Source of the DNA: Akkermansia massiliensis
GTDB lineage: Bacteria > Verrucomicrobiota > Verrucomicrobiia > Verrucomicrobiales > Akkermansiaceae
Reading direction: 5' to 3'
Length of the DNA stretch: 64,000 nucleotides
Assembly (NCBI RefSeq): GCF_023516715.1
Contig: NZ_JAMGSI010000002.1
Location: forward strand, 558,001-622,000
Shown: positions 31,429 to 62,187 of the stretch, piece by piece
Numbering within the stretch: position 1 is the stretch's first letter
Layout: each line of letters begins with the position of its first letter
Position numbers and translations under genes: made by a program
The notes under the pieces: model-generated
What the model saw: the letters and a program-made list of their open reading frames with translations, nothing else
The model's database searches: none
Told to the model about the DNA's origin: nothing

Positions 31429-31431
31429 TCA

Positions 31432-31470
31432 TTTTTCAAATATATTTCTAAAAAATTTTCTTCTTTTAGC
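31432..31470 (+). repeat. 39-bp direct repeat, copy 2, at the edge of an RHS fragment
   Basis: Partner of 28284-28322 (two mismatches). Here the repeat joins RHS fragment C to the orphan HExxH tip. Confidence 0.7.
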
Positions 31471-31640: not shown

Positions 31641-31781
31641 AATACGGAACTGTTTACTCTAGTCTTGTTTCATGGATCTTCTCTGTTTTTCATCTGAGCA
31701 ATTTTCTGAATATCAAAAGCTAAAATCTTTTGGAAATCTTACAGCAAGACTATTATTCATCATTCCGTTTTTAAATATAAA

Positions 31782-32228
31782 TTACATATTTAATATTAAA
31801 TAAATATTCGAATACACAAAACCTGAAAAAGCCATTCCTAAAAGAAAAAAATGTACTTGTTTTAATCGTCTGTAAGACATATTTCCTCGGATAGCAATTA
31901 CAAGATAAAGTTCATCTGGATTCCAATGTGCGTTTATCTTACAAAGAACGTATACAACTATAGCCACACAGGACATCAATAATAACGTGTACACAGAACT
32001 TAGGAATATAGCGATCACAACACATCCGCCAGATTGGTACAGAGCTAACAGAATGAGTGCACATAAAACAATGAGAAATAAAGAACCTATAATTTCAGCA
32101 CTGATTTTGTATTTTCTAACTATATTCTGAATTTCTCTCCTTTTATAAAACTTTTCTTCTTGCTTTGTCTTTGATGTTAATAAACACATCAAAAAGGACG
32201 AAATAAGAACCCACAGTATAGAAGACAT
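31782..32228 (-). CDS. Multi-pass membrane protein, putative immunity protein
   Basis: 148 residues, AT-rich, with about four hydrophobic segments (near 1-18, 44-66, 69-95, 125-146) and a basic loop (KTKQEEKFYKRRE). No family recognised. It follows a short remnant frame (32246-32404) that may be the end of a lost tip, so it is probably an orphan immunity gene in the RHS array. A membrane location would suit protection from a membrane-active toxin. Confidence 0.55.
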   Translation of the reverse strand: MSSILWVLISSFLMCLLTSKTKQEEKFYKRREIQNIVRKYKISAEIIGSLFLIVLCALILLALYQSGGCVVIAIFLSSVYTLLLMSCVAIVVYVLCKINAHWNPDELYLVIAIRGNMSYRRLKQVHFFLLGMAFSGFVYSNIYLILNM

Positions 32229-32245
32229 AAATCTACATTTTTAGT

Positions 32246-32404
32246 TCAAGGCAGGCCATGGCCTAGATGGCAAAAGTGGTGAAGTGGGGGGGAATCGTAC
32301 GGGTAGATAAACGCTCTGATATCATATGGAAAATGTTCCGATTCAATTCTCTTCCTGTGTTCTTTGTAATACGCTAGCTTCTTATAAAACAAGTCTGAAA
32401 ACAT
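32246..32404 (-). pseudogene. Short remnant ORF, possible end of a lost tip
   Basis: 52 codons from an ATG at 32404 (MFSDLFYKKLAYYKEHRKRI... ending HLGHGLP). It lies between two putative immunity genes where a toxin tip would be expected. It could equally be a chance frame in AT-rich DNA. Confidence 0.25.
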
Positions 32405-32419
32405 TTTTTCATGATTATT

Positions 32420-32779
32420 TCAATTGGAATCAGATTTATTTTTGATTTTCTTCAAAACATCTATTATTCTGAAACACTCAATGACTATAATAAGATAAGA
32501 AAAAATTAATGCTGTATATGATATTAAAAGTTCATTCGAAAAGTTTTCCCATAATAGATTTATACCATGATACATTGTTGACAAAACTCCAATTATTCCA
32601 GAGATCAGAAATAAATAAATTGTAAGTTTGATAATTGAAAAAGGGAAGTTATTAAATGAAAAATTAAGAGTATTTTTTTTGATCCAAACAAGGATTCTTA
32701 AAAATAGGATTACAAAAATACATCCACAAACTAATTCGAAATATTCATATCCAGTTAAAGGAGATTCAGGGTAAATCAT
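32420..32779 (-). CDS. Three-helix membrane protein, putative immunity protein
   Basis: 119 residues, AT-rich. Three hydrophobic segments (near 14-32, 47-67, 84-104) and a lysine-rich C-terminus (KKIKNKSDSN). No family recognised. It starts 29 bases after the end of the frameshifted tip of RHS fragment D, the immunity position. Function inferred from context. Confidence 0.6.
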   Translation of the reverse strand: MIYPESPLTGYEYFELVCGCIFVILFLRILVWIKKNTLNFSFNNFPFSIIKLTIYLFLISGIIGVLSTMYHGINLLWENFSNELLISYTALIFSYLIIVIECFRIIDVLKKIKNKSDSN

Positions 32780-32808
32780 AATAAAGATGACTAATTATAT
32801 CGTGTTCA

Positions 32809-33915
32809 TTATTTAGACCATATTTTTTTATTTTCATTAAAAGATTTGTTAGCGATTTCTTCAGTTTGATCTATAAAAAATGGAATTTTCAAAGTAGCGG
32901 CAATCTTAACATACCCCGTTGCATCTAAAGTTAAAGATATTGGTTTTGCATTCAAAGTTAACCCAGCACTTATCTTAAAATCAATAGAATAAGATGCTTG
33001 TATATAAGATGATAATGTAATATCCGCATCAATTCTATGAGACAATCCTAATAATTCTTCCCGATAGGATGTTGAAGTTTTACCATTACAATTGTCAATT
33101 TTAAGTATTTTTTCATTACTTAATCCAGCAACCATAGTTCGTAAAGAATATTCAATATCAGGCAGAATAGGCAACCATTTTTGTTTAATTTTAAGTCTTA
33201 TGCTACACCTATACCAACATCTGTTCGTAATTTTGCTTCAATGCATACACAATTTTTCTTTTTTTCTATTGATATACTTCCCTCAATAATAAGAAGAATG
33301 GGTATGTAACCCGCAGGGATAGTCATTGTGTAGCCAAATTCGTTAGTTTCTTTTCCGAGATAATCAATAGAGAATACCACTTCATTATCAACAAACCCAT
33401 ACAAATTCCATCCCCCTTCTTCAGCGATAGGATCCCTGTTAATCCACCTGCCGTCTGCAGGATTATAATAACGATAGTTGTAATAGACCAGAGCCAATTT
33501 GCCATCGTTCATTTCGCTGGACCACTGTACGGGTTGGACGAGGTTGCCTGTGCTGCCAACTATCCCATAGGGCGAGTAGTCGTAAGCCGCCGCGATCGTT
33601 CCCTGCCCATCAAAAACTTCCGTCACATTCTTGTTGAAGTCCCATCCATAGCAGTAAAGAGAGGCACCCTGCACCAGGGCCAGGGGGCGCGCGGCCACCG
33701 GTTCCAGTGGATCCCACAACAGTGTCCGACGCACGTTCCGGTTGTCCAGCATGTCCAACGCCGCTAGTTGCAGGTAGCCGCGGTACAGGTAGCGTTCATG
33801 GCTGGCGACCGTTCCGTTGACGGTGACCTTCTTCATGTACCGGCGTCCCTAGTAGTCGTAGTCGCATTCCACCACCGTACTGCCGTCCCGGCTGGTGAAG
33901 CTCATCGCACGATTG
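32809..33915 (-). pseudogene. RHS core fragment D with frameshifted tip
   Basis: The core part (about 33385-33915) is close to the intact RHS gene from NRAVSF to GGWNLYGF but has one CAG to TAG nonsense change (YDYQG becomes YDY-stop) just before GRRYMKK. The tip starts after DYLGKE. The first frame stops at 33198; a one-base shift continues it through IEYSLRTMVAGL..DNCNGKTS..LDATGYVKIAATLKIPFF to 32809. The tip is beta-rich and has no recognised catalytic motif. A 639-base frame inside it starting at an internal ATG (33836) could still be translated. Closest in sequence to fragment A. Confidence 0.7.
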
Positions 33916-33993
33916 CGGTAATTAGGATTCAAATTAAAAATTGAAAATCGTAGACTTTATTTTTTATAAAAATCTAAACATTCAAAAGGATTT

Positions 33994-34800
33994 TTATTTC
34001 TTTATTTCTATAGATGATAGGGGAATGCTATAAAATAGCTCCCATTGACTTTCTGTGTATTTTTCTTTTTTTAACATGTTCCATGTTTTAAATAAAAGTA
34101 AATTCAGTTTATTTGAATAATAATCATGCACATTAAAAAACATATCAGAAGGTTTCATTTTATTTAAAAATTCTACACATTTTTTTAAATTATAAACACC
34201 ATTTTCATAAACGTATAATATTAGTTCAGGAGAATAAGAATCAATAGAGCATATCGGATAAGAAGATAAGTCTTCAAAACTACCTAAAGGAAAAATAGTA
34301 TGAGATAAATTATCTGAAATATCGTTTATCTCAGAATCTGAATAAATTCTTATTTTTATACCGGTTTCTGGTCCGATTCGTCTGTTGATTGAGTTAATGA
34401 CCTTGTCATCCCCTTCATCCTTCATTAGAAGATGGTTAATTAATATGGCTTCAATTTCGGCAGATCTAGGTATCTGATGAGTTTTAACGGCTATAAGATA
34501 ATCGTATATTATATCGGTTAAAAAATTTACAGAAGACTTACTTATATCTTTTTGAGAGCAACCTGTAAGAAGCTTAAATAAAGAGGATGGCAATTCAGAA
34601 GTAGAATATGCTAATTTTGCTTCTATATACAATGCCAAAGTTTTCTCATAAAATTGCACCATCGGCAATCCTGATCTTATTTTATTTATTTTGGTTGCAT
34701 GGCTTGGGATGCATGATGAAGATTCTGCCAAGACTATGTTATCAGGAACTGCAATCAAGTATATTCCTGATAAGTAAAATATAAATTTAAGATTATTCAT
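33994..34800 (-). CDS. Exported protein, putative immunity partner of the intact RHS toxin
   Basis: 268 residues, AT-rich (unlike the RHS core). An N-terminal signal peptide (MNNLKFIFYLSGIYLIAVPDNIVLA) precedes a mainly helical soluble domain. No family recognised. The start overlaps the RHS stop as ATGA (34800-34797), so translation is probably coupled and the two form a pair. Predicted export suggests that the cognate toxin acts in the periplasm or on the envelope. It might alternatively be a second effector or chaperone. Confidence 0.65.
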   Translation of the reverse strand: MNNLKFIFYLSGIYLIAVPDNIVLAESSSCIPSHATKINKIRSGLPMVQFYEKTLALYIEAKLAYSTSELPSSLFKLLTGCSQKDISKSSVNFLTDIIYDYLIAVKTHQIPRSAEIEAILINHLLMKDEGDDKVINSINRRIGPETGIKIRIYSDSEINDISDNLSHTIFPLGSFEDLSSYPICSIDSYSPELILYVYENGVYNLKKCVEFLNKMKPSDMFFNVHDYYSNKLNLLLFKTWNMLKKEKYTESQWELFYSIPLSSIEIKK

Positions 34801-37800
34801 TTTTTTTGCTTTTTACATGCTTTCTTCTTAAGGTTCGATGCAGTTCTTTTTAGCATGACTTTTAATTGATTAGTATAGGTGTTCATTCTTCTCATACTAG
34901 CTTCTTTTAGACTGAATATTAGATTAAAGCTATCTACGCCCGATACAGGATTCATAAAATATTTTATTTTACCTTTATTGTCAATTTCACAACAACAATA
35001 TTCCAACTTAACACTTAGTTTTGTTTCTTCCAATATATATGCATTCGTTCGAGTATTTTGTACTATTCCAGAAAGACTTCGCATAAACCAATTATCATTG
35101 ACAGCTTTTCTAGCTGCTTCAATAATTTGTCTGCCGTCTATTTCCTGCTCTAATATACTTTTTGCTGCATCTTGAAGCTTTTCTTTAAAAGTACCAATAA
35201 TAACACTTTGGGGATCAGATACTGCGTATTCCTCTCCTCCAATGGTATTTGTTAATGTAAAGGATAATTTATCGTACCACCCCAAATGTTTTTTATCACA
35301 TGTCCAGTCTTTTAATCCAAGATAATCACATTTATATACGCATATATTACCCATAAATTCATACAAATTCCATCCCCCTTCTTCAGTGATGGGATCACGA
35401 TTGATCCACCTTCCATCGGCGGGATTGTAATAACGGTAGTTGTAATAGACCAGGGCCAATTCTACATCGTTCATCTCGCTGGACCACTGCACCGGCTGGA
35501 CGAGGTCCCCCGTGGAAACAACCTGTCCGTATGGCGAGTAGTCATAAGTTGCCGCAATAGCTCCCTCTCCAGCGAACACCTCCGTGACGTTCTTGTTAAA
35601 GTCAACTCCATAGCAGTAAAGGGCATTTTCCTGCACCAGGGCCAGGGGACGCGTTGCCACCGGTTCCAGTGGATCCCACAGCAGTGTCCGAAGCACGTTC
35701 CGGTTGTCCAGCATGTCCAACGCCGCTAGTTGCAGGTAGCCACGGTACAGGTAGCGTTCATGGCTGACGACCGTTCCGTTGACGGTGACCTTCTTCATGT
35801 AGCGGCGTCCCTGGTAGTCGTAGCCGCATTCCACCACCGTACTGCCGCCCTGGCTGGTGAAGCTCACCGCGCGGTTGGCCGCGTTGTAGACTACTGTCCA
35901 AATGCCCGTCGAGGTTTTGATGAGGGTCTGGTTGCCCGAGGCGTCGTACGTCGGCACAAAAGGCGCCTCCGCTTTTTCTTCGATGCTTGTGTACTGGTTG
36001 AGGTTGTTGGCCGCGTAGGAAAGTTCCTCGGCCAGTTCCCGCGCCGTCTTGCGGTTGCCGATGTTGTCGTAGCTGTAACCGTAGGGGGCTGTTCCCAGAG
36101 TAGCCCCGGTGAGTTCGTTTCTGCCGTTGTAGCTGAAGCTGTCAGTACGAGTTGCTTCGGTTCCCCGCTGCTGGGTGCGGGTGACCGGGCGTCCCAATGC
36201 GTCGTAGCTCTGGCTGCGGGAGACCAGCGCGGTTCCCCCCAGACGGCAGCTTATGGCCACTGCCAGGTCACGGTGTTCTTCATAGGCAAGTTCCCGGACG
36301 ATGCCGTTGGGCATCGCGAGGCTGGAGGGCAGGCTGCTTCCCGCCAGGTAGCCGTAGGCGAAGGTTTGTTCTTCTCCTCCGTGCACGATTCCGGCGCCGG
36401 CAAGCCTCCCGTTGGCTTCATAGCCCTGGCTTGCTTCCTGGAGGACGTCGGTTCCCTGTTTCAGGGTATAGCCGGAGGACCGGCCGTAGGCATCGTAGTT
36501 TTCCTGGAGCTGGCAGGAGGCGCCTCCTATGGTGATGCTATCGGTGTCCGGTTCGTTGTAGGGAGTGTAAGTGATGGTGCGAGAGCCTGAGGCGTCCGTC
36601 ACCTGGGTCAGCTGGTTGAGGCAGTTGTAGGCGTACTGGATGCCGGGCGTGGAGTCGCTGTAGGAGACGGAGGTGTTGACCCCTTTCTTCAGATTGTAGC
36701 CCCAGGTGGTGACCACCCCGCGCGCGTCTGTGAGCGTGGATCTGAGGTTCAGGGCATTGTAGGCGGTGTCCTCATGCGTTCCGTCCGCGTAGGTTTTACG
36801 CGCCAACAGCCCCGTGGCTTCATCATAGCTCCAGGTGGTGACGTCTCCGTCCGTGCGTCCCGTGGGGTCGGTGGTGATGTCGCCCGCGTCCTCCCGGAAG
36901 GTGGTAAGGCTGACCATTCTGTCGGCTTCGTCGTAGCCGAAGAGCAGGGGCTGGGCGCCCGTTCCCCATTGCGCCGTATTGCGGCCCCGGAGATCGTAGT
37001 TGTAGCATGTCGTTTTCCCGAGGGCGTTGGTGACGGCGGAAGGCTGGTCAAACCAGGGATCGTAGGCGGTAGAAGCCGTGTTGCCCGCCGCGTCGGTAAC
37101 GGAAACAGTGCGCCCGGCGATGTCGGTACGTGTCGTAATGGTGTTGCCCCGTCCGTCCGTGTTAGTGTAGATGATGCCGGTTTCCGCATAGGCTCGGGTC
37201 TGCGTGGAAGTAATGCCCGCGTGGTCCGTCTGCGTGGTAGTAAAGTCGTCGATGACCGTCGCGGTGGCCGTGACATTGGAAGTGGGGATGCTGCTTTTTT
37301 GCGTCCGCAGGGCGCCTGTTCCGTATTCGCTCCACTGTGTGGATATATTTCCTCTGGGACCGATGAAGACGGTTTTGCTTTCCAGCGTGGACGAGAGGGA
37401 GGAAACCAGCGTCTTCTGCGTTTCGCCATAGGTAGTCCCTTGGCCGTTGTTCCTAGTCGCCGTGACGACGCGGTAGACGCCGTCCTGCGCCTGTTCCACG
37501 CCATAGCTCCACGTGGTGATGCGCGAGTTGGACACGGTGGCCGGATCGGCAAGCTTCCAGGTTTCCTTGACCTTATTGCCGAAGTCGTCGTATTCCCACA
37601 GGGTCGGCGCCATCGTCGTAGCTGCGGTTTCCGCATCTGTCTGTTCCTTGGTCAGCTGTCCCTTGGCGTTATAGGTGTTCCTCGTGTAAATGACTCCCCC
37701 GATGGTGTTGGGCCGGCCCGTGCGCAGAATTTCCCCGGCACCGTTGGCGACGCTGCGCTGCAGTTCGGTTTCCGTTTCCCCGGAGACGGCTTTCGTGAAG

Positions 37801-40541
37801 GTCCGAACGCCGTCGGCAACCAAGTCGAGGGAATAGATGATATGCCGCTGTCCCGTGCCGGATTCTTCCAGGACCGTTCCGTCCGGCGCGTTGCGCGTGA
37901 CGAACGTGGCTCCGGAGGGAGTGGTTTGCGTCGTCGTCAGACCGTCTTCGCTGTAGGCGTAGGTGGTGACTCGTCCCAGGACGTCCGTAGAGGAAGTTAT
38001 CCTCCCCAGCAAGTCGTACTCCGAGCTTTCGCTGGTCGTCATGGCCCCCGTATCCCGGCGCGTAGAGAGGATGCGCCCCGCCGCATCCAGGGTGTAGGTG
38101 GTGATGGTTTCCGGCGTGATGACGGTTTCCCCGTCCATTACGGCGGAACGCGTGGTTTCCACCAGTTGGCGCGCCGTGTCGTAGGCATAGTCCATTCTTA
38201 CACCATTTTCATCAATGTCCCACAACAGGCGCCCGTCGCACATCAGCTCGCGCTCCGTTATTCGGCCATTGCCCGCCGTCCGCTTCACCCACCTGTTCTG
38301 CGTGTCAAATTCATAGGAGGCGCTGTCCGTGAGCGCCCATTCCCCGCCGGTGAGCAGGGCGTAGCTTTCTTCCCTGACGCGCTGCCCTTCCGCCGTGATC
38401 CAGGTCGTGGTGCGCGTGCTCTGTCCCGGCACGGTTTCCCCGTTGACGCGCGTTTCCAACGTTTCCGTGTAGAGGGCGCCGTGCTCCGTCGTTGCCGCGT
38501 AGTCGTGCCAGGTTTGCACGCCGGTGAGGTCCCGGGTCATCCGGGTGCGTCCGCGGGCATAGACGTCGGGCGCGCCGGCCAGCCATTGTTCCGTGGCCGT
38601 CAGGCGCGTGCCCGTTACTCCCAGTCCGGTGACCCGCTTTTCCGTCCTTTTGACGTGATTGGCCGTCGTGTACTTGTAGGCAATGGTGGTCAGCGTCTTG
38701 ACGTGTCCTTCCAGCGGAAGCAGGTCTACCGTTTCCGTGGCGGGTTCGTCGTTGAAGTCGGCTTCTCCCGAATAGGCATAGGTGTAGCGCGTGATGCGCC
38801 TGCCGCTTTCCGCCCACGGTTCGTCGCGGGAGAGCAGGCGTCCGTAGAGGTCATACGCGTAATGAATTTGGCTGCCGTCCGGGGCAGTTTCCGTCTTGAG
38901 CCGTCCGCACTGGTCGTAGGCGTATTGCGTGGTCTGGGCTTCCTGGCTTTGATAGCCTTCCACTTGAGTGAGCAGCAGATCGCCTACGTCCGTCGTTTGA
39001 TATATGGAGCAGGTGCGCTCTGCCACGATACCTCCTTTGGAGATTTCCGTCACCAGCTGCCAGACCGAGTCTTCCGGTTCCAGCTCCGTGCGCGTGCGGA
39101 TGGTCGTGACGGCGTCTTCCCCCGTGCCCTGCCGCATGTTCCACGCCAGGCCGTCGTTCCACCAGGTGACGGCGTAGGGCTGCCTAGCCGGCGCCTGTTC
39201 CGTGACGGTGAAGTGGCCGTCCGCGGAAAGGGAAAGGTTGAATGTTTTAAAGGGTGTCCCGGTGACCGTATAAAATCCCTGTTCGTCCGTTCCGGTGATT
39301 TGCCCAGGCGTGTAGAGCGCGATGATGTAGCCCGTGGAGGTGACGTTTTCCACGTTGAGCAGGCCGTCCCACAGGTTCCAGATTTGCCTCAGCGAGCCGT
39401 CTTCGGCATGCTTGACGTCCAGGTAGGATGACGCGTTGGAGATGACCTGCTTGTCGGTGGTGGTGTAGGAGAGGAGCATTCCTGTTTCCGCCGAGAAGAG
39501 GTATTGGCTGCCGTCTTCCACGATCCAGCGGAGGCAGGATTGTCCTTCCACCGTGTCCAGCGTTGCCCGTCCTCCGCCCGACGTGTCCACGCCAACGGGC
39601 AGCACGGACCCGTTCATATAGCAGCGCATGGCAATCACCCGGTCTCCCTGCACCAGATCAAAACGCACTCCGGGTACAATTCCCCCTTCGGGCACGTCCA
39701 GGCGGCTGTTCAACGGATGGTTGTAGGCCAGTGAGGAGGGGCTTTCCAGGCCGGAGACAGTTTCCTCAGCCCTCAGTTCCACAAGGCCCGCAGGAATCCC
39801 TCCCAGTCCCCGGAACATTCCGAAGTTGCAGGACCAGTACATCAGGGTGGCCGTGCTTTCCGCACTCACACTGCACCCTGCGGAGGAGTAGTTTCCCAGC
39901 GTGCTATTCCCCACCGCGGAGCCCGACCGGGCCAGCGACGGGGAAGGCGGCGTTCCGCCGCTGTTATCACACGTGTCTCCCTCGCACGGGCACTTCTCGG
40001 GCTCCTCCTTGCCTCCCGGCTCCGTCGGCACCACGTCGATGCTATAGTTGCAGATGGAGACGTTGTCTTTTTCAGGCTTGTAGTCGATGTTGGTCTGGTT
40101 GACTTCCCAAATGTAGGAGCCGGAGGGCAGCTGCGCCCCGCCGGTCCCCGTGTGGTATTTATGGCCGCCCTGCTTGCCTGCCGTCTGCGAGTCTTTCTTC
40201 AGGTCCACCTGCGCCACCACGCTGCCGCTGGAGTCCTTCACTTCCAGGCTCCCCCAGTCGTCTACTCCCAGGAAGAGCGAACAGGTGCCGTAGAGCTTTT
40301 TACCGTCCGCTCCTTCCGGAATGGTAAAGTAACCGTGAGCACTGTGTCCATCCGCCGACGTACTGGGCGGTCCCACGGTAATTTCATCGTGTTCGTGGAT
40401 TTCCTCGAACGGTAGCGGATCGGGCTCCGGAGAGGCGCGCATGCCACGCGGCATGGGTTTGGCCGTAGAGCCAAAGTACCATTTGCGGTAAGCGGGGATG
40501 GAAGAAGGGGTGCCGGCAGAAGAAGTAGTTGGAGTATTCAT
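34797..40541 (-). CDS. RHS repeat polymorphic toxin with variable C-terminal tip
   Basis: 1914 residues. An N-terminal beta-sandwich region (about 50-190) and a cysteine-containing linker (CPCEGDTC) precede the RHS/YD-repeat shell (about 480-1730). The shell has dozens of YAYD, YDxxGR and YSYD motifs, as in proteins that wrap a toxin in a cocoon. The hallmark RHS core end RYYNPADGRWINRDP..GGWNLYEF..DYLGL (D1739) marks the autocleavage and tip boundary. The last ~170 residues are an AT-rich tip of unknown fold, helical with a CCC motif and a lysine-rich end. No signal peptide, PAAR or VgrG sequence was seen, so the delivery route is unknown. The core is GC-rich like its neighbours; the tip is not, indicating tip replacement. 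The next gene overlaps it as ATGA. Confidence 0.88.
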   Translation of the reverse strand: MNTPTTSSAGTPSSIPAYRKWYFGSTAKPMPRGMRASPEPDPLPFEEIHEHDEITVGPPSTSADGHSAHGYFTIPEGADGKKLYGTCSLFLGVDDWGSLEVKDSSGSVVAQVDLKKDSQTAGKQGGHKYHTGTGGAQLPSGSYIWEVNQTNIDYKPEKDNVSICNYSIDVVPTEPGGKEEPEKCPCEGDTCDNSGGTPPSPSLARSGSAVGNSTLGNYSSAGCSVSAESTATLMYWSCNFGMFRGLGGIPAGLVELRAEETVSGLESPSSLAYNHPLNSRLDVPEGGIVPGVRFDLVQGDRVIAMRCYMNGSVLPVGVDTSGGGRATLDTVEGQSCLRWIVEDGSQYLFSAETGMLLSYTTTDKQVISNASSYLDVKHAEDGSLRQIWNLWDGLLNVENVTSTGYIIALYTPGQITGTDEQGFYTVTGTPFKTFNLSLSADGHFTVTEQAPARQPYAVTWWNDGLAWNMRQGTGEDAVTTIRTRTELEPEDSVWQLVTEISKGGIVAERTCSIYQTTDVGDLLLTQVEGYQSQEAQTTQYAYDQCGRLKTETAPDGSQIHYAYDLYGRLLSRDEPWAESGRRITRYTYAYSGEADFNDEPATETVDLLPLEGHVKTLTTIAYKYTTANHVKRTEKRVTGLGVTGTRLTATEQWLAGAPDVYARGRTRMTRDLTGVQTWHDYAATTEHGALYTETLETRVNGETVPGQSTRTTTWITAEGQRVREESYALLTGGEWALTDSASYEFDTQNRWVKRTAGNGRITERELMCDGRLLWDIDENGVRMDYAYDTARQLVETTRSAVMDGETVITPETITTYTLDAAGRILSTRRDTGAMTTSESSEYDLLGRITSSTDVLGRVTTYAYSEDGLTTTQTTPSGATFVTRNAPDGTVLEESGTGQRHIIYSLDLVADGVRTFTKAVSGETETELQRSVANGAGEILRTGRPNTIGGVIYTRNTYNAKGQLTKEQTDAETAATTMAPTLWEYDDFGNKVKETWKLADPATVSNSRITTWSYGVEQAQDGVYRVVTATRNNGQGTTYGETQKTLVSSLSSTLESKTVFIGPRGNISTQWSEYGTGALRTQKSSIPTSNVTATATVIDDFTTTQTDHAGITSTQTRAYAETGIIYTNTDGRGNTITTRTDIAGRTVSVTDAAGNTASTAYDPWFDQPSAVTNALGKTTCYNYDLRGRNTAQWGTGAQPLLFGYDEADRMVSLTTFREDAGDITTDPTGRTDGDVTTWSYDEATGLLARKTYADGTHEDTAYNALNLRSTLTDARGVVTTWGYNLKKGVNTSVSYSDSTPGIQYAYNCLNQLTQVTDASGSRTITYTPYNEPDTDSITIGGASCQLQENYDAYGRSSGYTLKQGTDVLQEASQGYEANGRLAGAGIVHGGEEQTFAYGYLAGSSLPSSLAMPNGIVRELAYEEHRDLAVAISCRLGGTALVSRSQSYDALGRPVTRTQQRGTEATRTDSFSYNGRNELTGATLGTAPYGYSYDNIGNRKTARELAEELSYAANNLNQYTSIEEKAEAPFVPTYDASGNQTLIKTSTGIWTVVYNAANRAVSFTSQGGSTVVECGYDYQGRRYMKKVTVNGTVVSHERYLYRGYLQLAALDMLDNRNVLRTLLWDPLEPVATRPLALVQENALYCYGVDFNKNVTEVFAGEGAIAATYDYSPYGQVVSTGDLVQPVQWSSEMNDVELALVYYNYRYYNPADGRWINRDPITEEGGWNLYEFMGNICVYKCDYLGLKDWTCDKKHLGWYDKLSFTLTNTIGGEEYAVSDPQSVIIGTFKEKLQDAAKSILEQEIDGRQIIEAARKAVNDNWFMRSLSGIVQNTRTNAYILEETKLSVKLEYCCCEIDNKGKIKYFMNPVSGVDSFNLIFSLKEASMRRMNTYTNQLKVMLKRTASNLKKKACKKQKK

Positions 40542-42772: not shown

Positions 42773-42788
42773 TGTTCCACGTAGAACA
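42773..42788 (+). promoter_or_regulatory. parS: parS-like site, one mismatch
   Basis: TGTTCCACGTAGAACA is a near-perfect 16-bp palindrome. It matches the perfect copy at 48205 at 15 of 16 positions and the classical parS TGTTTCACGTGAAACA at 13 of 16. It is intergenic, 120 bases beyond the end of dnaN. parS is bound by ParB to segregate newly copied origins. Confidence 0.45.
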
Positions 42789-42829
42789 TTCATGTGAATA
42801 ACCCAGTCATCACTTTCATTTTCAATCAA

Positions 42830-42893: not shown

Positions 42894-43994
42894 TCAGTTG
42901 GGAGATCTCATTGGCATGAGCACGTACAGGAACTCATCACCTATCTTCAATACGCCCGGGCTCATTTCATCAATGAGGTTTAACGTAATGATCGTATCCC
43001 CGGCCATCGTCTTCAGGGGAGCCATGAAGAAATCCGGGTTGAAGGAGATGGAAAGCGGCCTTCCGGCATAAGTGATCGTCATGGATTCATGAGCTTCACC
43101 CACGCCTTCCGCGCTGGAAGCCACTTCGAGTTCGTTTTCACGGAAGTTCAGCTTGATGTTCGTGCTTTTGTCCACGGAAAGGAGGGACACGCGGCGCACC
43201 GTTTCCAGCAGTTCCCCGCAGGGCAGTTCAATGCTTTCCTTGCAGTCCGTCGGGATTACCTGGCGGTAGTTCGGGTAATTGCCGTCAATCAGCTTGCTGA
43301 TCAGCAGCGTGTCATTGATTTCAAAAGCGGCCTGGTTGCGGGTGAACCGTACGGTGACGGTCCCCACTTCATCCAGAAGGCGGCGGAGTTCACCAACGGC
43401 CTTGGTGGGCAGAATGGCGTCCAGTTGCTGTTCTTCCGGGAATTCCAGGGCGGTTTCCGCCAGGGCCAGGCGGCGGCCGTCCGTAGCCACCAGAGTCATC
43501 TTGCCGTTGCGGAAGGAAAGGGAAATGCCGTTCAGCACGTAGCGGGTCGTATCCGTAGAGATGGCGTATTCCGTGCGGCGGATGCAGTCGCGCAGCAAAT
43601 TCTGGTCCACCTGGTACACGGTCGCCTGTTCAAAGGACGGCAGTTCGGGGAATTCGTCCGCCGGAAGGCCATTCAGCTTGAACTGGGAGCGGCCGCATTC
43701 CACAGTCGCCTGGTTGCGCTGGTTGACGTCCACCTGGACTTCGGCTTCAGGAAGCTCGCTGATGATGCTCACCAGCTTTTTGGCGGGAAGAGTCACGGTG
43801 CCCTCGCGCAGCACGTTCGCGGGAACTACGCCGGTGATGCATACGTCAAGATCCGTAGCCGTAAAACGTACCTGGCCGTTTTCAGCTTCAATCTTGACGT
43901 TGGAAAGAATGGGCAGCGTCGTCTTGGAAGACACCACGCTGGCAACCTGTCTCAGACCGTCGAGAAATACTTGCTTGGAAATGGTAAACTTCAT
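42894..43994 (-). CDS. dnaN: DNA polymerase III sliding clamp (beta subunit)
   Basis: 366 residues, the usual clamp length, with three homologous clamp domains. It starts MKFTISKQVFLDGL, contains LPILSNVKIEA, VATDGRRLALAE and GNYPNYRQVIP, and ends in the canonical ..FLYVLMPMR(S). The dimeric ring tethers replicative polymerase to DNA. No dnaA or recF lies beside it here, but a DnaA-box cluster is 2.3 kb away. Monocistronic, with its own terminator. Confidence 0.97.
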   Translation of the reverse strand: MKFTISKQVFLDGLRQVASVVSSKTTLPILSNVKIEAENGQVRFTATDLDVCITGVVPANVLREGTVTLPAKKLVSIISELPEAEVQVDVNQRNQATVECGRSQFKLNGLPADEFPELPSFEQATVYQVDQNLLRDCIRRTEYAISTDTTRYVLNGISLSFRNGKMTLVATDGRRLALAETALEFPEEQQLDAILPTKAVGELRRLLDEVGTVTVRFTRNQAAFEINDTLLISKLIDGNYPNYRQVIPTDCKESIELPCGELLETVRRVSLLSVDKSTNIKLNFRENELEVASSAEGVGEAHESMTITYAGRPLSISFNPDFFMAPLKTMAGDTIITLNLIDEMSPGVLKIGDEFLYVLMPMRSPN

Positions 43995-44453: not shown

Positions 44454-45188
44454 GTGAAACGTTCATTCATTATTTTGTCTTTACTGGTTGCGGGAGGCAT
44501 GGCCCATGCGGCTTCTCCCATTTATTCCTGGGAGTGGACCACTGAAGGAACGCAAATAACTGCTCCCGGCTGGAACGGTTCATTCAATTATACAACCGGC
44601 AACGATTATGCCACTTTCGGCAGCGGCTCCGGCGGAGGCACGCCCTACAACTCTGGCATAGCGGGAATTTCAGGCAGTTTCACCGTCAGCTTCGACCTGA
44701 AAAACCTGAGTTCCACCAACAACGCCTGGAAAGACGTTTTCAGCTTGTATTCCAATGGAACGGTTTCCGGAGAATCCAACAGCATGGTACTGGAATTCAA
44801 TGCTTCCGGGGAACTTTATTTTTACAACAAGGGATTTGGAGGCCAATCCGGCGGAAACATCAATACAGGCCTGACCTGGACGGACCTCCAGCAGGACAAC
44901 TGGAACAATCTGAGCATCGTTTCCGATCTTTCCTCCCAGACTCTCTCCGTGTACGTCAACGGCACCCTGGCAGGTACGATCACCGGCTGGAATCCGTCCT
45001 CCCCTGCCCTGACAGGCTCCCAATTTGGAGCTTCCTTTGGAAACACCCGTCCCATGAACGGAACCATAGATGTCAACAACATCAAATTTTACGACGGCGT
45101 TGTGCTTCCTGTTCCGGAAGCGGCCACTGCTTCCCTGGGGCTGCTGGGCCTGGCCGCCCTGCTGATGCGCCGCCGCCGGAGCTGCTAA
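44454..45188 (+). CDS. Exported PEP-CTERM protein with LamG-like lectin fold
   Basis: 244 residues from a GTG start at 44454. Signal peptide (MKRSFIILSLLVAGGMAHA), then a concanavalin/LamG-like beta-sandwich (about 25-215, with FTVSFDLKNLSS, NWNNLSIVSD and LSVYVNGTLAGTI). It ends in the sorting tail VPEAATASLGLLGLAALLMRRRR; the usual VPEP is VPEA here. Possibly a surface glycan-binding protein. A strong terminator follows. Confidence 0.75.
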   Translation: MKRSFIILSLLVAGGMAHAASPIYSWEWTTEGTQITAPGWNGSFNYTTGNDYATFGSGSGGGTPYNSGIAGISGSFTVSFDLKNLSSTNNAWKDVFSLYSNGTVSGESNSMVLEFNASGELYFYNKGFGGQSGGNINTGLTWTDLQQDNWNNLSIVSDLSSQTLSVYVNGTLAGTITGWNPSSPALTGSQFGASFGNTRPMNGTIDVNNIKFYDGVVLPVPEAATASLGLLGLAALLMRRRRSC

Positions 45189-45279: not shown

Positions 45280-46185
45280 TCATGTTCCCGTGAATGTTTC
45301 CCCCGGCATGGTCCAGGCGCCGGGCGGAACCACCCTGCCCGGCAAAACAACGGTATTGGCGCCCAGGCGCACATGATCCCCAATGACGGCTCCCAGCTTG
45401 TTCCTTCCGGTAATTTCCAGCCTCCCGGCCGCCATCATCCTGTGCTCCCCGCCGTCATGGCGGAAATTGGAACACACCGTTCCAGCCCCGAAATTGACGT
45501 CGCTGCCAATGATGGAATCACCCGCATAGCTCAGATGGGGAATAAACGTCCCGTCTCCGATGATGCAGTTCTTCAGTTCCACCCCCTGCCCCGCTACACA
45601 GCCGTTTCCCATGGACACATATCCTCTCAAATGGCAGTTGGGCCCAAGACGGCAGCCGTCCCCCACCCATGCGGAGCCCTCAACCACCACGCCAGGCATC
45701 ACCACGGTGCCCTTTCCCACACGGAGACTGCCCAGGACGTAAACGCCCGGCCGCCCGGAAAAATCGTCTCCCTCCATTCCCTCCATCACTCTCTCCTGCC
45801 AGTCCAGCAGGTCCCAGGGATAGACGAGGCGCTCCACAGCCGCCTCCTGCCCGGAAAAAACACGTGACAGTCCGTTCCCCGGCCCTTTCCGGGCCAGCAG
45901 CCGCCCTTCTTCATTCCGTACTTCCCCTGTCCCGCAGGAAGCAAGCCATGCGGCAGCTTCCGGGGAAAAATCATGCATGGACACCTCTACCACTTCCGCC
46001 GCACTTTCCGTAACGGCGGCTTCCGGATTAAAAACCGCCTCAAAGCCCGCTTCCCGGAGCCGGGAGGCACAATAGGCGGCTACGCTCACCCCGGCCACGG
46101 AAAAGCCGCGGAAGAGCCTCTCAGGGCTCGTTGCGGGAAAGGTATGGTCCCTTTCCGGAATGTAAATCAATCTGGCAACCCTCAT
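45280..46185 (-). CDS. Left-handed beta-helix acyltransferase-like protein (GlmU-related)
   Basis: 301 residues from ATG 46185. The C-terminal half (about 155-300) is a hexapeptide-repeat left-handed helix (GSAWVGDGCRLGPNCHL..). It contains IPHLSYAGDSIIGSDVNFGAG, closely matching the acetyltransferase active-site region of GlmU including the catalytic-type histidine. The N-terminal half is a reduced nucleotidyltransferase-like domain without an obvious Walker-like GTAGPL motif, so uridylyl transfer is doubtful. Possible role in UDP-sugar or surface-glycan precursor synthesis. Its start region borders the origin candidate. Confidence 0.65.
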   Translation of the reverse strand: MRVARLIYIPERDHTFPATSPERLFRGFSVAGVSVAAYCASRLREAGFEAVFNPEAAVTESAAEVVEVSMHDFSPEAAAWLASCGTGEVRNEEGRLLARKGPGNGLSRVFSGQEAAVERLVYPWDLLDWQERVMEGMEGDDFSGRPGVYVLGSLRVGKGTVVMPGVVVEGSAWVGDGCRLGPNCHLRGYVSMGNGCVAGQGVELKNCIIGDGTFIPHLSYAGDSIIGSDVNFGAGTVCSNFRHDGGEHRMMAAGRLEITGRNKLGAVIGDHVRLGANTVVLPGRVVPPGAWTMPGETFTGT

Positions 46186-46259: not shown

Positions 46260-46470
46260 AATAACCCTGTGAAAGGATAAGTCAATTAACTGTGAGTATG
46301 GTGTGAATAAGTTATTCAGATGTTATCCACATTTTTATGAACCGAATTTATTCACACTGTCGGATGGTTTCAATCCATTCATTCCCAGGCGGTAAAAACG
46401 TTGTTCACACTGGGCACAGGGTAGAAGAAGAAGGAATTTAATATTGTTAAATCTAATATTCTTCAATCAC
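46260..46470. other. oriC: Candidate replication origin (DnaA-box cluster with AT-rich stretch)
   Basis: The 330-base gap between divergent genes contains a perfect DnaA box TTATCCACA (46323-46331), two TTATTCACA boxes (46302-46310 on the minus strand, 46348-46356) and TTGTTCACA (46401-46409), with a weaker TTATTCAGA at 46312-46320. An AT-rich run (46434-46465, AATTTAATATTGTTAAATC..) follows and could be the unwinding element. dnaN is 2.3 kb to one side, mnmG 1.5 kb to the other, and parS-like sites flank both. The boxes are seen directly; origin function is inferred. Confidence 0.6.
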
Positions 46471-46515: not shown

Positions 46516-47571
46516 ATGAACACGGAGGACCAAGATACGCGCTGGATGAACATGGCCGTAAAACTGGCCGAAAAAGGGGTCGGGCTGACAAGTCCTAATC
46601 CCTGCGTGGGAGCGGTCATCGTGCATGAAAACCAGGTGATCGGCTCCGGTTTTCATGAAAAAGCCGGCCTGCCCCATGCGGAAAGGAAGGCTATTGCCGA
46701 TGGAACGGCCAGAGGCAACGCGGCCCTGTTTGCGGATTCCACTCTGTACGTTACTCTGGAGCCGTGCAGCACCACCGGAAAAACGCCACCCTGTACGGAA
46801 GCCATTCTGGAACACCATTTCAAACGGGTGGTTTATGGCTCTCAAGACCCCAATCCCAGACACCGCGGCGCCGCGGCTGATATTCTTGGGAGAGCAGGCA
46901 TCCAAGTCACCCGCGGAATTCTGGAAAAGGAATGCGATCATTTAATCCGGGGATTCAGGCTGAACATGCTGGAGGGGCGCCCATGGGTGATCGCAAAGAG
47001 CGCCATGTCCCTGGACGGCCGCATTTCACGCAGTCCGGAACGGTCCCAGTGGCTGACGAATGAAAAATCCAGGTCTTTCGTACATACCCTGCGGGCTGAG
47101 TGCGATGCGATTCTTACCGGAGGAAATACCATGCGCCTGGACAATCCGTCCCTGACCATCAGAAAACCGGACCGTCCCGTTTCTTCCCTTAAGGAACAGC
47201 CCTGGCGCATTATCCTGACTCACAACGCCGCATCCATTCCTGCGGATTCCGTTTGCCTGACGGATGAATTCCGTGACCGGACCCTGATTGTAGAGAACGT
47301 TTCAAGTTATTTGGAATTATTAAAAAATCTGTATAATGAAAGAAAAACAGGGACTGTCCTGCTGGAAGCGGGAGGCTGCCTGGTCCGGGAATTCCTGAAA
47401 GCCGGCCTGGTGGATGAATGGGTGGGATTTTACGCGCCCATCATAACGGGCGGCGGCGCAGACGGCGTAACGGGCGGTTCATTCCTGGAACGTGAAGCCT
47501 TTCTTGAGCAGCCGGTTGTGAGCATCTTTGGAAGCGATGTGTGCATCCGGGGCGACGTAAGCTACCGGTAA
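46516..47571 (+). CDS. ribD: Bifunctional riboflavin biosynthesis deaminase/reductase RibD
   Basis: 351 residues from ATG 46516. N-terminal cytidine-deaminase-like domain with the zinc motif HAE (PHAERKAI) and PCSTTGKTPPC; it removes the amino group from the pyrimidine intermediate. The C-terminal reductase domain (about 140-351: KSAMSLDGRIS, GGNTMRLDNPSL, EAGGCLVREFL) reduces the ribose side chain with NADPH. Steps two and three of riboflavin synthesis, cytosolic. No other rib gene is adjacent. The start lies about 50 bases beyond the origin candidate. Confidence 0.93.
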   Translation: MNTEDQDTRWMNMAVKLAEKGVGLTSPNPCVGAVIVHENQVIGSGFHEKAGLPHAERKAIADGTARGNAALFADSTLYVTLEPCSTTGKTPPCTEAILEHHFKRVVYGSQDPNPRHRGAAADILGRAGIQVTRGILEKECDHLIRGFRLNMLEGRPWVIAKSAMSLDGRISRSPERSQWLTNEKSRSFVHTLRAECDAILTGGNTMRLDNPSLTIRKPDRPVSSLKEQPWRIILTHNAASIPADSVCLTDEFRDRTLIVENVSSYLELLKNLYNERKTGTVLLEAGGCLVREFLKAGLVDEWVGFYAPIITGGGADGVTGGSFLEREAFLEQPVVSIFGSDVCIRGDVSYR

Positions 47572-47933: not shown

Positions 47934-49820
47934 TCATGCCTGCTGCCTGCCGCGCTTTTGCAAATGAACAAGCAGCAGGGCAATGTCCGCCGGAGTAATG
48001 CCCGGAATGCGGGAAGCCTGCCCGATAGTGGCAGGACGTATGCTGCCCAGCTTGATGACCGCTTCTTTTTTCAGGGCGTGAACGCGTTCGTAATCAATGT
48101 CGGCAGGAATGATTTTACTTTCCATCCGGGTGATTTTTTCCGCCTGTTTTTTCTGTCTTTCAATGTGGCCTTCATACTGGATATCCGTGGCAATGGCATC
48201 CAAATGTTCCACGTGGAACATTTTTTTCAGTTCTTCAGGCAGCAGGGTCCAGTCATTGCCTGGCCTCTTGAGCCAGGTGGAAAGGGAAACGCCTTCATGT
48301 TTAAGCAGAGCTGCTTTTGCTATTCCTTCCTCAATGGCGTTTTGCCTGTCTTCCGTTTTCCTGAACGTTTCGCGGGTGATGAGGCCCGTTTCAAAAGCCA
48401 GGGGGGCCAGGCGCAGGTCCGCGTTGTCCTGGCGCAGCAGCAGCCGGAATTCCGCCCGGCTGGTGAACATGCGGTACGGTTCGTCCGTTCCCTTGGTGAC
48501 AAGGTCGTCTATCATGACGCCGATGTAGGCCTGGTCGCGGCGCAGCACCAGGGAGGGCTTGCCCAGAGTTTTCAGAGCGGCGTTTGTTCCCGCCATCAGA
48601 CCTTGCGCGGCGGCTTCTTCATAGCCGGAGGTACCGTTGATTTGTCCTGCAAAGTACAGGTTTTCCACCAGCTTGGTTTCCAGAGTAGGGTGCAGCTGCG
48701 TGGGAGGGCAGAAATCATATTCCACCGCATACCCCGGACGAATCAGTTGGGCGTTTTCCAGGCCGGGAATGGTGTGGATGAAATCGCATTGCGCGGAGTA
48801 GGGCAGGGAGGTGGAAACGCCATTGAGGTAGAATTCCTCCGTACTGCGGCCTTCCGGCTCCAGGAAGACCTGGTGGCTGGTTTTTTCCGCAAAGCGCACG
48901 ATTTTGTCTTCAATGGAAGGACAGTACCGGGGGCCTATGCCCTCAATGATGCCGCTATAGAGAGGGCTGAATTTTAAATTGTCCCGGATAATGTCGTGGG
49001 TGGTCTGATTGGTGTAGGTAATCCAGCACGGCATTTGCTTCATGCGGAAGTCTTCGTCTCCCCATGTGTTCAGGGTGCAGAAAGGTTCGGAAGCGCGTTT
49101 CAGTACGTCGCGGGAACGGTAACTGAACAGAGCCTCCGGCGCGTCTCCGGGCTGCATTTCACAAACGGAAAAGTCAATGGATCTTCCATTGACGCGCGGG
49201 GAGGTGCCCGTTTTAAGCCGTTCCACTTGAAAGCCAAGCGCGGCGAGGTCGGTGGAAAGGCTGGAAGGAGCGCAGCCCATGCGGCCGCCCGTTATGTGCT
49301 GAAGACCCACGTGCAGCAGCCCCTGCATGAATGTACCGGAGCAGATGACCACGCTGCGCGCGCAGATGGTGTAGTCCAGGGAAGTGACGGCTCCCGTCAC
49401 CTGCTGCTCCCCGTTGACGAGCAGTTTGACCACGTCACCCTGGAACAGGCGTATGCCCGGGGCGGTTTCCAGAACCATTTTCATTCGTGCTCGGTAGGCC
49501 GTTTTGTCGCATTGGGCGCGGGGTGCGCGCACGCTGGGCCCCTTGGAGGCGTTCAGCATCCGGAACTGGATGGCGGTGGCATCCGTATTCAGTCCCATGG
49601 CCCCTCCCAGGGCGTCTATTTCCCGGACAATGTGGCCTTTGGCAAGCCCCCCGATGGCCGGGTTGCAGGACATTTGCCCGATGGTATCCAGGTTGTGGGT
49701 CAGAACGGCGACGGAGCACCCCAGGCGGGAGGCGGCCAACGCCGCTTCAATGCCTGCGTGCCCGGCGCCGACGACGAGGACGTCGAACAGGGAGGAGGCG
49801 GGGGAAGGAGAGGAATTCAT
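47934..49820 (-). CDS. mnmG: tRNA uridine 5-carboxymethylaminomethyl modification enzyme MnmG
   Basis: 628 residues from ATG 49820, normal for MnmG/GidA. FAD-binding motif [12 protein letters not shown] at the N-terminus, [36 protein letters not shown], and a helical C-terminal domain for MnmE partnership. With MnmE it modifies wobble uridine 34 of certain tRNAs. The start overlaps the holA stop by one base (TGATG), so the two genes are co-translated. A perfect parS-like palindrome is embedded in the codons for MFHVEHL near the 3' end. Confidence 0.96.
48205..48220 (+). promoter_or_regulatory. parS: Perfect palindromic parS-like site inside mnmG
   Basis: TGTTCCACGTGGAACA is a perfect 16-bp palindrome differing from classical parS (TGTTTCACGTGAAACA) at only two symmetric positions. 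This variant is familiar as functional parS in pseudomonads. It is read as FHVEH in MnmG. It lies about 1.8 kb from the origin candidate, where parS sites usually are. Confidence 0.6.
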
Positions 49821-59736: not shown

Positions 59737-62187
59737 TCAGGCCCTGCGGCGCATTGCCAGCAGAGCCGCCATGCCCAGGAGCCCCAGCAGGGCACAGGAC
59801 GGTTCGGGCACGGAAAGCGTCACGATTCCCGTGGAAGCGTCGTAATCCAGCACATTCCAGCCATGGGCGGCCTCTGCCAGGGAAAAATCTTCCGCGGAGG
59901 AAAGCCCTTCCAGAGTACCCCCTGAAATATCCGTAATCCTGAAGGACATGGTGCCGGAGCGAGCAAGGATGCCGCTGACGTCCAGAGTCAGGCCGTCCAG
60001 CAGGTTCAAGACGCCTCCCGTCATGATGATGGAGGCCAGCCCTTCGCCTCCTTCCACCAGGTTCATGGATGAAAGCTCCACGGTAAAATTCCCCGCCGCC
60101 AGGCTGTCGCCCGTTCCCAGCGTCATGGAATTGCCGGCCAGGATGCGGGAGCCGTTGGACAAGGCGAGTGTTCCTTCCAGGTGCTGGTCCGCCCAGACCA
60201 CCTGGTGGCCGATTTCCACGCGCGCAACGGTGCCCCAGTTCAGCACCTCCCCTCCGGACAGGCGGATGGTGTTGGAAACGTCATAACGGTTCAAATCCAG
60301 CGTTCCTCCCGTGTGAACGGCCGCCGTTCCCGTGCCCAGGGCGCTTTTGTCTCCGAGCCGCAAAGTGCCTCCCCGGATTTGGGTGCCTCCCGCATAGGTA
60401 TTGGCATGGGCCAGAACCAGCGTATTGCCGGTGGTCTTGGACAAGGCCCCATTTCCGGAAATCCCGCCGGACAGGGTCAGGACTTTTCCGGTGGCGTTGG
60501 TGGAGCTCCCGAAGGAGGAAACGGTGCCTTCCTCCAGAATGAAACGGTTGCTCCACGTATTGGACGTCACGTGTTCCCAGCCGGCAAGGACGGTTGCCCC
60601 CTGGAGCGTGACGGAGCCCGTTCCCCAGCCGGAGCCGGCGGTCTTGGTATCCGTGCCGTTCATTGTTACTTCCACTCCCGGACCGACGGTCCAGTTTCCC
60701 GTAAAAGCGGCGGCATCCGTATTGACGTAGGCGCTGACCTCCACTCTGGCGATTCCGGAGGGATCAGCCGCAAGGGTGGAATTGCGGATGGCGACGTCTC
60801 CCGTTCCCGTGATGAACGTGAGCTGATGGTTGCCGGAAGAACTGCTCCCCCGGATGGACAGGGTGCTTCTTCCCGCAAGGTTCCATTGCTGGTCGCCCTG
60901 AAGCTCCAGCACGGAAGCGATGTTCAGGTTTTTTCCGGTTGCGATGTCGATGCCGCCGCTCCCCAGGATCAAATGGCCGTCCTGCATGGAGGGAGCGGAA
61001 CTGCCGTCAACGGCCACGCCCCGGATGGTGATGGTGTTCAGGTATGTATCTTCAATCCTGATGCCGTAAAGCACGGCGTTGGTTCCGGCGGCGGAACTCA
61101 CCATGTTATCCTTGGCGGAGGAGGCTGCGTCCCAGACGGCCGTGCTGTCCACGGGGAGCTTGCCGTTCATCCAGGCTTCCGTGGAAGAGAGAGCGGCGTC
61201 GTAATTTCCGCTGCGGACCGTACCCGTATCGTACCCGGCCAGCCTGGCCGCCTCATAGGGATACCGCGCTCCGATGGTGATCTGGGACTTTCCGTCGTAA
61301 TGGACGCCCATGTTGTCGCCGGAGGTGATTTTGGCGAGGTCCCGTGTCGGAACCCAGCCCATGTTGTCGTTTGCCCGGGCCAGGGCTTCCTGCTGGTCGC
61401 GGGTTGTTCCGGAAGAACCTTCATTGCCGTTGAATCCTCCGGTGACGTCCCCCGTTTCAGCATTCGTGACGTTGGTTGTGCCCCACTTGGCCTGTTCTCC
61501 CAGAATGGCCTGATGTGCCGCCAGAGGGCCGGTGTCCACTCCATCCCGGGCAAGGTCCCCCTGCAAGTTGTCCAGAAACGTTAAAAATGAATTGGCGGCA
61601 TTACTGCTGTCAGTGACTGTATTGGACTCTCCCTGAAGGTACATTACGCCCATGATCTCCACCTTGTCGTAACCGTTGGCCAGGGCGTTTTCACAAGCCT
61701 TCCTGACGGTCTCCACTATGGCATTATAGGCGTTCGTGCCTTTGTTCCAATAGGAATTGCCTCCTCCGTCCAGAGTAGCCTTGACGATTCCCATGTCCGC
61801 ATGTCCGGAGCCAGGGCCGCCCAGGGACCATCCCTTGCGCTCCATCATGGCGGCAAAGCCGTACTCCGGCCCCATGCAGTTGTAATTGCTTGACTCCGTT
61901 CCGCACACCTGGGGTACGACAGAACCCCAGGAAGAGGAAGCTGGCGGATTGCAGTCTACGGAACTGCCGGTGATCTTGTTGAAATTATTGTGCCAGAATT
62001 TGGTGCTTCCATCGGACCTGTACTGTTCCAGCAGCTCCGCGGACGCCGGAGACCCCTTGACGGCTCCCAGGGAATTGGATTGTCCTGTCAGGATGTATAA
62101 TTGAAGCGTCTTGGCTTCTGCCGCGCCGATGAAAGCCGCCGTTATGGGGATGAACAGCAGACTGCGGTAAAGTGATGAAAATTTCAT
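59737..62187 (-). CDS. Exported SGNH-type carbohydrate esterase with autotransporter-like repeats and PEP-CTERM tail
   Basis: 816 residues from ATG 62187. Signal peptide (..FIGAAEA), then a sialate-O-acetylesterase-like (SASA/CE6-type) domain, about 26-330. It has S37 in ILTGQSNSLG, the block II-like GVMYLQGESN, and a C-terminal histidine in VHYDGKSQ; these fit the Ser/His catalytic pair. A beta-helix region with the autotransporter-associated strand motif (SKTTGNTLVLAHANTYAGGT.. and GGTLRLGD) follows at about 420-760. The end VPEPSCALLGLLGMAALLAMRRR is the sorting tail. It probably removes acetyl groups from sialic acid or other mucin sugars at the cell surface. Confidence 0.8.
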   Translation of the reverse strand: MKFSSLYRSLLFIPITAAFIGAAEAKTLQLYILTGQSNSLGAVKGSPASAELLEQYRSDGSTKFWHNNFNKITGSSVDCNPPASSSWGSVVPQVCGTESSNYNCMGPEYGFAAMMERKGWSLGGPGSGHADMGIVKATLDGGGNSYWNKGTNAYNAIVETVRKACENALANGYDKVEIMGVMYLQGESNTVTDSSNAANSFLTFLDNLQGDLARDGVDTGPLAAHQAILGEQAKWGTTNVTNAETGDVTGGFNGNEGSSGTTRDQQEALARANDNMGWVPTRDLAKITSGDNMGVHYDGKSQITIGARYPYEAARLAGYDTGTVRSGNYDAALSSTEAWMNGKLPVDSTAVWDAASSAKDNMVSSAAGTNAVLYGIRIEDTYLNTITIRGVAVDGSSAPSMQDGHLILGSGGIDIATGKNLNIASVLELQGDQQWNLAGRSTLSIRGSSSSGNHQLTFITGTGDVAIRNSTLAADPSGIARVEVSAYVNTDAAAFTGNWTVGPGVEVTMNGTDTKTAGSGWGTGSVTLQGATVLAGWEHVTSNTWSNRFILEEGTVSSFGSSTNATGKVLTLSGGISGNGALSKTTGNTLVLAHANTYAGGTQIRGGTLRLGDKSALGTGTAAVHTGGTLDLNRYDVSNTIRLSGGEVLNWGTVARVEIGHQVVWADQHLEGTLALSNGSRILAGNSMTLGTGDSLAAGNFTVELSSMNLVEGGEGLASIIMTGGVLNLLDGLTLDVSGILARSGTMSFRITDISGGTLEGLSSAEDFSLAEAAHGWNVLDYDASTGIVTLSVPEPSCALLGLLGMAALLAMRRRA

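Follow-up and report, generated by a model that had tools for sequence, protein, structure and literature searches.

In the window, the whole 64,000-nucleotide stretch of DNA analysed here, a short intergenic segment between a glmU-like gene and ribD carries a cluster of DnaA boxes followed by a trinucleotide repeat and an AT-rich run. The window belongs to an Akkermansia genome of 3,280,190 bases in three contigs (C1, C2 and C3), labelled G000. The features of the region are given below by window position, and conservation refers to an alignment of 12 genomes, i.e., G000 and 11 relatives.

42773–42788: parS-like palindrome with one mismatch, beside dnaN
42793–42801, minus strand: exact DnaA box TTATTCACA standing alone downstream of dnaN
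42894–43994, minus strand: dnaN, sliding clamp (TIGR00663)
45280–46185, minus strand: glmU-like hexapeptide transferase, left neighbour (TIGR03992 below cut-off, PF00132 above)
46260–46470: candidate oriC core segment, intergenic between the glmU-like gene and ribD, proposed from box cluster, skew and conservation
46302–46310, minus strand: DnaA box 1, TTATTCACA; unchanged in all 12 aligned genomes
46312–46320, plus strand: DnaA box 2, TTATTCAGA, one mismatch; altered once in G001 and the same in the other 11 aligned genomes
46323–46331, plus strand: DnaA box 3, TTATCCACA; free position 5 varies, and G008 and G044 vary elsewhere too
46348–46356, plus strand: DnaA box 4, TTATTCACA; one mismatch in G004, G005 and G006
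46401–46409, plus strand: DnaA box 5, TTGTTCACA, nearest the trios; reads TTATTCACA in G004, G005 and G006
46422–46433, plus strand: DnaA-trios TAG AAG AAG AAG (TAGAAGAAGAAG), 12 bp past box 5; the same in all 12 aligned genomes
46434–46468: AT-rich stretch, 83% AT, strongly conserved; proposed unwinding element
46516–47571, plus strand: ribD, right neighbour and genus-wide locus marker (TIGR00326)
47934–49817, minus strand: mnmG (TIGR00136)
48205–48220: perfect parS palindrome TGTTCCACGTGGAACA, inside mnmG and 1.8 kb from the origin segment
49820–50983, minus strand: holA, clamp-loader delta (TIGR01128)

The presence of dnaN, holA and mnmG nearby, proposed in a first-pass annotation of this DNA, was confirmed, as all three genes score above their NCBIfam cut-offs; ribD, an acetolactate synthase small subunit and HrpA in the same neighbourhood do so as well. 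That annotation placed the origin between dnaN and mnmG, which is right insofar as both genes are close, but the immediate neighbours of the segment are the glmU-like gene and ribD. The left neighbour falls below every listed NCBIfam cut-off, and its Pfam hexapeptide repeats are above theirs. Neither Rfam nor tRNA scanning gave any match in the window. parS-like palindromes had been suspected on both sides of the segment and were indeed found there, at 42773–42788 and 48205–48220, the latter being the only perfect TGTTNCACGTGNAACA of the genome. A ParB-family protein above its cut-off is encoded on C1, away from the origin segment; parS near the origin and ParB in the same genome are together the hallmarks of a ParABS segregation locus. 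Farther to the left, the window contains a low-GC island (28500–36000; 33–38% GC vs. 55–64% in most other parts of the window) that ends about 10 kb from the origin segment. None of eight scanned small minus-strand ORFs of this island matches Pfam, and an RHS/YD-repeat protein of 1914 aa (34797–40541, minus strand) is encoded at its edge. Secreted-looking proteins encoded at 44454–45188 (plus strand), 59737–62217 (minus strand) and 62265–63059 (minus strand) carry a tail of the VPE...LLGL..ALL..RRR type, which we take to resemble PEP-CTERM sorting signals.

All four DnaA boxes that had been reported within about 110 bases are present, spanning 108 bp, and they are accompanied by a fifth, TTATTCAGA, which forms an inverted pair with box 1 across a 1-bp gap. 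Boxes with at most one mismatch are about as numerous in the window as expected by chance (35 vs. 27.3 expected, a number reached in 9 of 100 shuffles), and hence only their clustering is unusual. Exact copies of TTATNCACA number 36 in the genome (21 forward and 15 reverse; 17 and 19 for the reversed control), and this is the only place in the whole genome where three of them fall within 55 bp, for which a rough Poisson estimate gives 5e-6. The best 110-bp stretch holds five boxes here and three at the next best place, in a comparison of the window and 60 sampled stretches that covered 1.26 Mb with overlaps counted twice. The segment thus contains a DnaA-box cluster beyond chance, as is characteristic of a DnaA-dependent oriC. 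Other groupings of boxes occur on C2 of the same genome, namely two close pairs of exact boxes (C2:550613–550689 and C2:882496–882546) and, near C2 904143, a cluster of three boxes at up to one mismatch; they are possible DnaA titration or regulatory sites.

Genome-wide GC skew was sampled in 60 stretches of 20 kb. The skew is positive in all 30 sampled stretches of the right arm and negative in all 28 of the left arm, including four of contig C3; two turning-point stretches, one over the origin segment and one beside the terminus, are weakly positive (0.017 and 0.009) and were left out of these counts. The sign changes from minus to plus at about 600 kb on C2 and from plus to minus at about 1.1 Mb on C1, and the sole minus-to-plus change within a contig among the 60 stretches is at the origin segment. 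Within the window, the cumulative skew minimum is first reached at 46098 and the same value recurs at 47240; the best least-squares change point, in bins of 500 bases, is 46500, followed by 46000, 47000 and 47500. A skew minimum located elsewhere had been named beforehand as the observation that would speak against an origin at this place. Instead, the local minimum and the genome-scale switch both fall here, where the minus-to-plus change of an oriC should lie. If C3 belongs to the left arm, the arms are unequal, at about 1.8 and 1.5 Mb, which counts against the origin reading. The proposal that gene direction diverges at the segment did not hold, since mnmG and holA face left though they are on the right side; plus-strand ORFs account for a share of 0.56 in the right arm vs. 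0.50 in the left (automatically called ORFs, sampled stretches), a coding-strand bias so weak that the argument from gene direction carries no weight.

A DNA search with the 326-bp segment recovered it in 12 of 76 genus genomes, G000 included. R1, a sequence-only model built from the 12 aligned genomes, matched 29 of the 76 at an E value of 0.01, 12 of these being its own training rows; the other 17 matches (E 1.9e-13 to 0.01) all lie beside ribD, two of them on the strand opposite to it, and in all 12 aligned genomes the segment likewise adjoins ribD. This gene was found in 73 of the 76 genomes and was usable as a marker in 72, G042 being dropped for too little upstream DNA. At least three boxes occur within 450 bp upstream of ribD in 67 of the 72 genomes (55 of the 60 outside the model), with a mean of 5.9 boxes vs. 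0.61 in shuffled DNA (20 approximate dinucleotide shuffles per genome), 0.06 inside ribD and 0.25 downstream. The five genomes with fewer than three are G050–G053 and G069; these exceptions, like the limited reach of R1, weigh against the origin reading. Across the family, a strict three-box pattern is found in 10 of 195 genomes, seven of them in Akkermansia, and all five named records matching a 30-base pattern of the segment are labelled Akkermansia or Akkermansiaceae. The other three strict three-box arrays (L083, L084 and L085) belong to two other genera of the family. In G005, ribD (L201) matches in two pieces with internal stops and looks broken beside a conserved origin segment.

The identification of the segment as a chromosome origin, first made from the boxes and the neighbouring genes, is upheld by the unique box cluster, the skew switch, the parS sites and the conservation, and we regard it as almost certain that replication of this Akkermansia starts here. 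How the origin opens is suggested by the DNA following box 5. Published criteria for basal unwinding comprise a DnaA box with at most two mismatches to TTATCCACA, a spacer of 0–16 bp and at least three NAN trios (PMC8287927), and the reported spacer lengths peak at 10–13 bp (PMC8287927). Box 5, TTGTTCACA, differs from TTATCCACA at two positions, its spacer to the trios is 12 bp, and four trios follow. The AT-rich run described earlier beside the boxes is real: 46434–46468 is 83% AT, and 35-mers this AT-rich make up 0.8% of those in the window and 0.3% of those in its 36–64 kb part, giving the segment the adjoining AT-rich element of an oriC, with a predicted role in unwinding. Judged by sequence, box 5, the 12-bp spacer, TAGAAGAAGAAG and the 83% AT run together match a basal unwinding module. 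Within the sampled stretches, a box combined with such trios occurs only at the origin segment, and in the 12-genome alignment the AATTTAATATTGTTAAA that follows the trios is nearly invariant, and between boxes 4 and 5 the DNA varies over much of its length.

Opening by this box-trio route is probable. Alternatively, the origin could be located here with its trios unused, TAGAAGAAGAAG and the AT run serving another protein or simply melting. Such a reading gains from the looseness of the published trio pattern (three NAN words, PMC8287927) and from shifts of the trio frame between subclades, but the spacing lies within the published 10–13 peak, the trios are invariant in all 12 aligned genomes, and many distant relatives retain a trinucleotide repeat, albeit with other letters; we therefore consider it unlikely. 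The frame reads TAG AAG AAG AAG here and GAT GAT GAT GAA in many relatives, which have the repeat GATGATGATGAA in place of TAGAAGAAGAAG, so that the repeat is retained and its best frame differs. Trio patterns were found in 48 of 72 genomes, and in 36 of the 60 that were not training rows; this count is given little weight because the patterns were picked after viewing the sequences and had no shuffle control.

Full-length dnaA lies at C1:1503887, i.e., on a different contig from the origin segment. In many bacteria, oriC adjoins dnaA, and the separation seen here speaks against the origin reading, although E. coli likewise has oriC apart from dnaA (PMC8287927). The distance between the two is about 0.9 Mb here, or 1.1 Mb with C3 between them, provided that the right end of C1 joins C2 at its left end, an arrangement compatible with the skew signs. 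The encoded DnaA has the box-reading domain IV that an oriC of this type depends on (C1:1503887 and C1:1504631; signature GGRDHGTVIHA). A second, short DnaA-domain protein (L003; G000 C1:1560441–1560791, 229-aa open frame), found in three of eight genomes searched, is perhaps Hda-like. In five of the six single-contig relatives searched (G001, G004, G005, G009 and G012), dnaA lies no farther than 2.3 kb from base 1 and the homologous origin segment is situated 0.96–1.24 Mb inside. An origin at dnaA, with the box cluster reduced to a secondary DnaA-binding site for titration or regulation, would suit this position near base 1 and the frequent adjacency of oriC and dnaA elsewhere. However, skew does not change sign near dnaA (C1:1503887) in G000, nor at dnaA in G004, G012 and G057 at the sampled spacing, and we regard this location as very improbable. 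The minus-to-plus change in G004 and G012 brackets the homologous segment and not dnaA, on both sides of which skew is negative. G057 served as a blind test, being a distant member that was missed by the DNA search and is absent from the 12 genomes from which R1 was built: its skew turns from minus to plus within a gap of 365–517 kb between samples, and R1 matches at 425045–425231, inside this interval. Least probable of all is that the conserved segment is a ribD promoter or a DnaA-regulated ribD operator and not an origin, since, although DnaA can serve as a transcription factor and the segment is beside ribD in all 12 aligned genomes and all 17 further model matches, a conserved TTGTCC...TACAA pair located between the AT-rich run and ribD looks like a separate ribD promoter (the promoter scan detected no sigma-70 consensus in the orientation of ribD), and promoter use alone leaves the skew switch and the parS sites unexplained.

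In sum, this is a DnaA-type origin of the ordinary kind, well supported, with a plainly recognizable box-trio module and set apart from dnaA. The best overall explanation, a single chromosomal oriC that probably opens through a box and trios and is segregated via parS, is very likely, with a confidence slightly below that for the origin itself. By homology with characterized systems, the distantly encoded DnaA would bind the five boxes via domain IV, and a DnaA filament would load from box 5 onto one strand of the DnaA-trios, stretching that strand. The filament would then open the adjoining AT-rich stretch, where the helicase would be loaded and from which two forks would depart in a bidirectional initiation. 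ParB bound at the flanking parS sites may segregate the new origins.

In the clade formed by G050–G053 and G056, the box core is changed from CACA to GACA. G050–G053 keep the array, which reads TTGCTGACA, TAACTGACA and AAACTGACA, and G056 reads TTATTGACA. In an alignment with G013, G021, G029 and G023, several of the altered boxes occupy matching positions, followed by a repeat of the same GATGATGATGAA type (GATGACGATGAA in G050). When position 6 of box-like 9-mers was scored as C or G, G outnumbered C in all five clade genomes and C outnumbered G in 67 of the 68 others, all but G063. A count of TTRYTGACA at one mismatch was discarded as a clade marker, as this pattern overlaps the ordinary box and the count of three in G052 was reached by a shuffle. 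In a RibD tree the five genomes form one clade (support 100/99) with G056 outermost, and they therefore represent one lineage and not five independent events. G023 is perhaps the sister of this clade (weak support, 83/29) and has mixed boxes; DnaA had no match in its 76%-complete genome. G069 has few boxes and an ordinary DnaA.

The clade was delimited from the boxes first and DnaA was examined afterwards, domain IV being obtained for 29 of 30 genomes searched. Residue positions follow E. coli numbering by alignment to 1j1v, whose chain numbering we take to be that of E. coli DnaA. Position 433 is Ser in five of five clade genomes and Asp in 24 of 24 others. Position 439 is Asn in four clade genomes and Ala in G056 vs. 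His in 24 of 24 others. At position 435 the inner four carry Ala and G056 has Gly, as do 23 of the 24 others, the remaining one having Ser. These three positions are among the reported box-specific contact residues (399, 423, 433, 434, 435 and 439; PMC7561715), and the DnaA helix 434–451 reads the 5'-TnCACA-3' part of the box (PMC5742627), in which the core change of the clade falls; no DnaA contact residues were found in PMC5043019. Some of the DnaA changes may be unrelated to the boxes, as seven of about 77 domain IV columns separate the five clade genomes cleanly. Furthermore, A outnumbers C at position 6 in five of the 68 other genomes (G014, G015, G062, G063 and G070), forms that AT-rich DNA alone may supply; those among them with DnaA read (G014, G063 and G070) have the ordinary Asp433, showing that position 6 can drift without change at 433.

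We slightly favour the view that this clade switched the specificity of its initiator and its origin together, in at least two steps; the preference was trimmed from a modest to a slight one because position 6 can drift while 433 stays the same. On the stem, the box core would have gone from TTATTCACA to TTATTGACA while DnaA changed from Asp to Ser at 433 and lost His at 439, and in the inner four genomes the boxes would have moved on to TTGCTGACA-like forms, with 435 becoming Ala and 439 Asn. The ribD-side locus, the array and the trinucleotide repeat would have persisted through the switch, and G056 may be a living intermediate in the code change of an essential protein–DNA pair. If the paired change is true, a long-standing question becomes testable, namely how an essential initiator and several origin sites can change their code without killing the cell.

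Overall, the analysis locates to the base the origin of a gut genus that is widely studied and supplies a working model of it; comparing genomes across the genus brought out a candidate switch of the initiator–origin code in a single clade. The analysis also indicates that dnaA is the wrong landmark for the origin, even though five of the six single-contig genomes examined begin with this gene; coverage-based growth-rate estimates would misplace the origin by about one third of the chromosome if they set it at base 1 or dnaA. A Hi-C study of the OMM12 community assigned origins to 12 mouse-gut strains, including A. muciniphila YL44, via parS and skew (PMC10197239). Coverage backed the assigned positions in all cases, and the origin did not always coincide with dnaA (PMC10197239). 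At a coarse scale the origin location was thus probably already known for YL44; no coordinate for Akkermansia is stated in the available portions of that text, nor are boxes, trios or conservation described there (PMC10197239). A predicted dif site has been reported for A. muciniphila (PMC3025954). Literature searches for Akkermansia with oriC and DnaA, GC skew or parS (for parS, among the matches listed) and for Verrucomicrobia with oriC yielded, in the excerpts available, no description of the boxes or trios.

The DnaA-trio mechanism was described for the basal unwinding system of Bacillus subtilis, consisting of boxes #6/#7 and DnaA-trios (PMC6669920). The Akkermansia module resembles it in having a box with at most two mismatches, a spacer of 12 bp, four trios whose middle letter is A, and then AT-rich DNA. 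It differs in lying far from dnaA, in having trios that are mostly AAG after a first TAG, and in the fixed inverted and tandem array formed by the other boxes upstream. With oriC of Escherichia coli it shares boxes of the TTWTNCACA type (PMC7561715) and a location apart from dnaA (PMC8287927). The box-trio module is plain in Akkermansia, whereas the E. coli score is relatively weak (PMC8287927). The neighbours in Akkermansia, ribD and a glmU-like gene, set it further apart from E. coli oriC. For the switched clade, a parallel is offered by Thermotoga maritima, whose DnaA box is also divergent. The DnaA of T. maritima has changed domain IV contact residues (PMC7561715), as does that of the switched Akkermansia clade. 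Unlike in T. maritima, the change in Akkermansia took place within one genus and at a fixed locus, with G056 as a possible intermediate.
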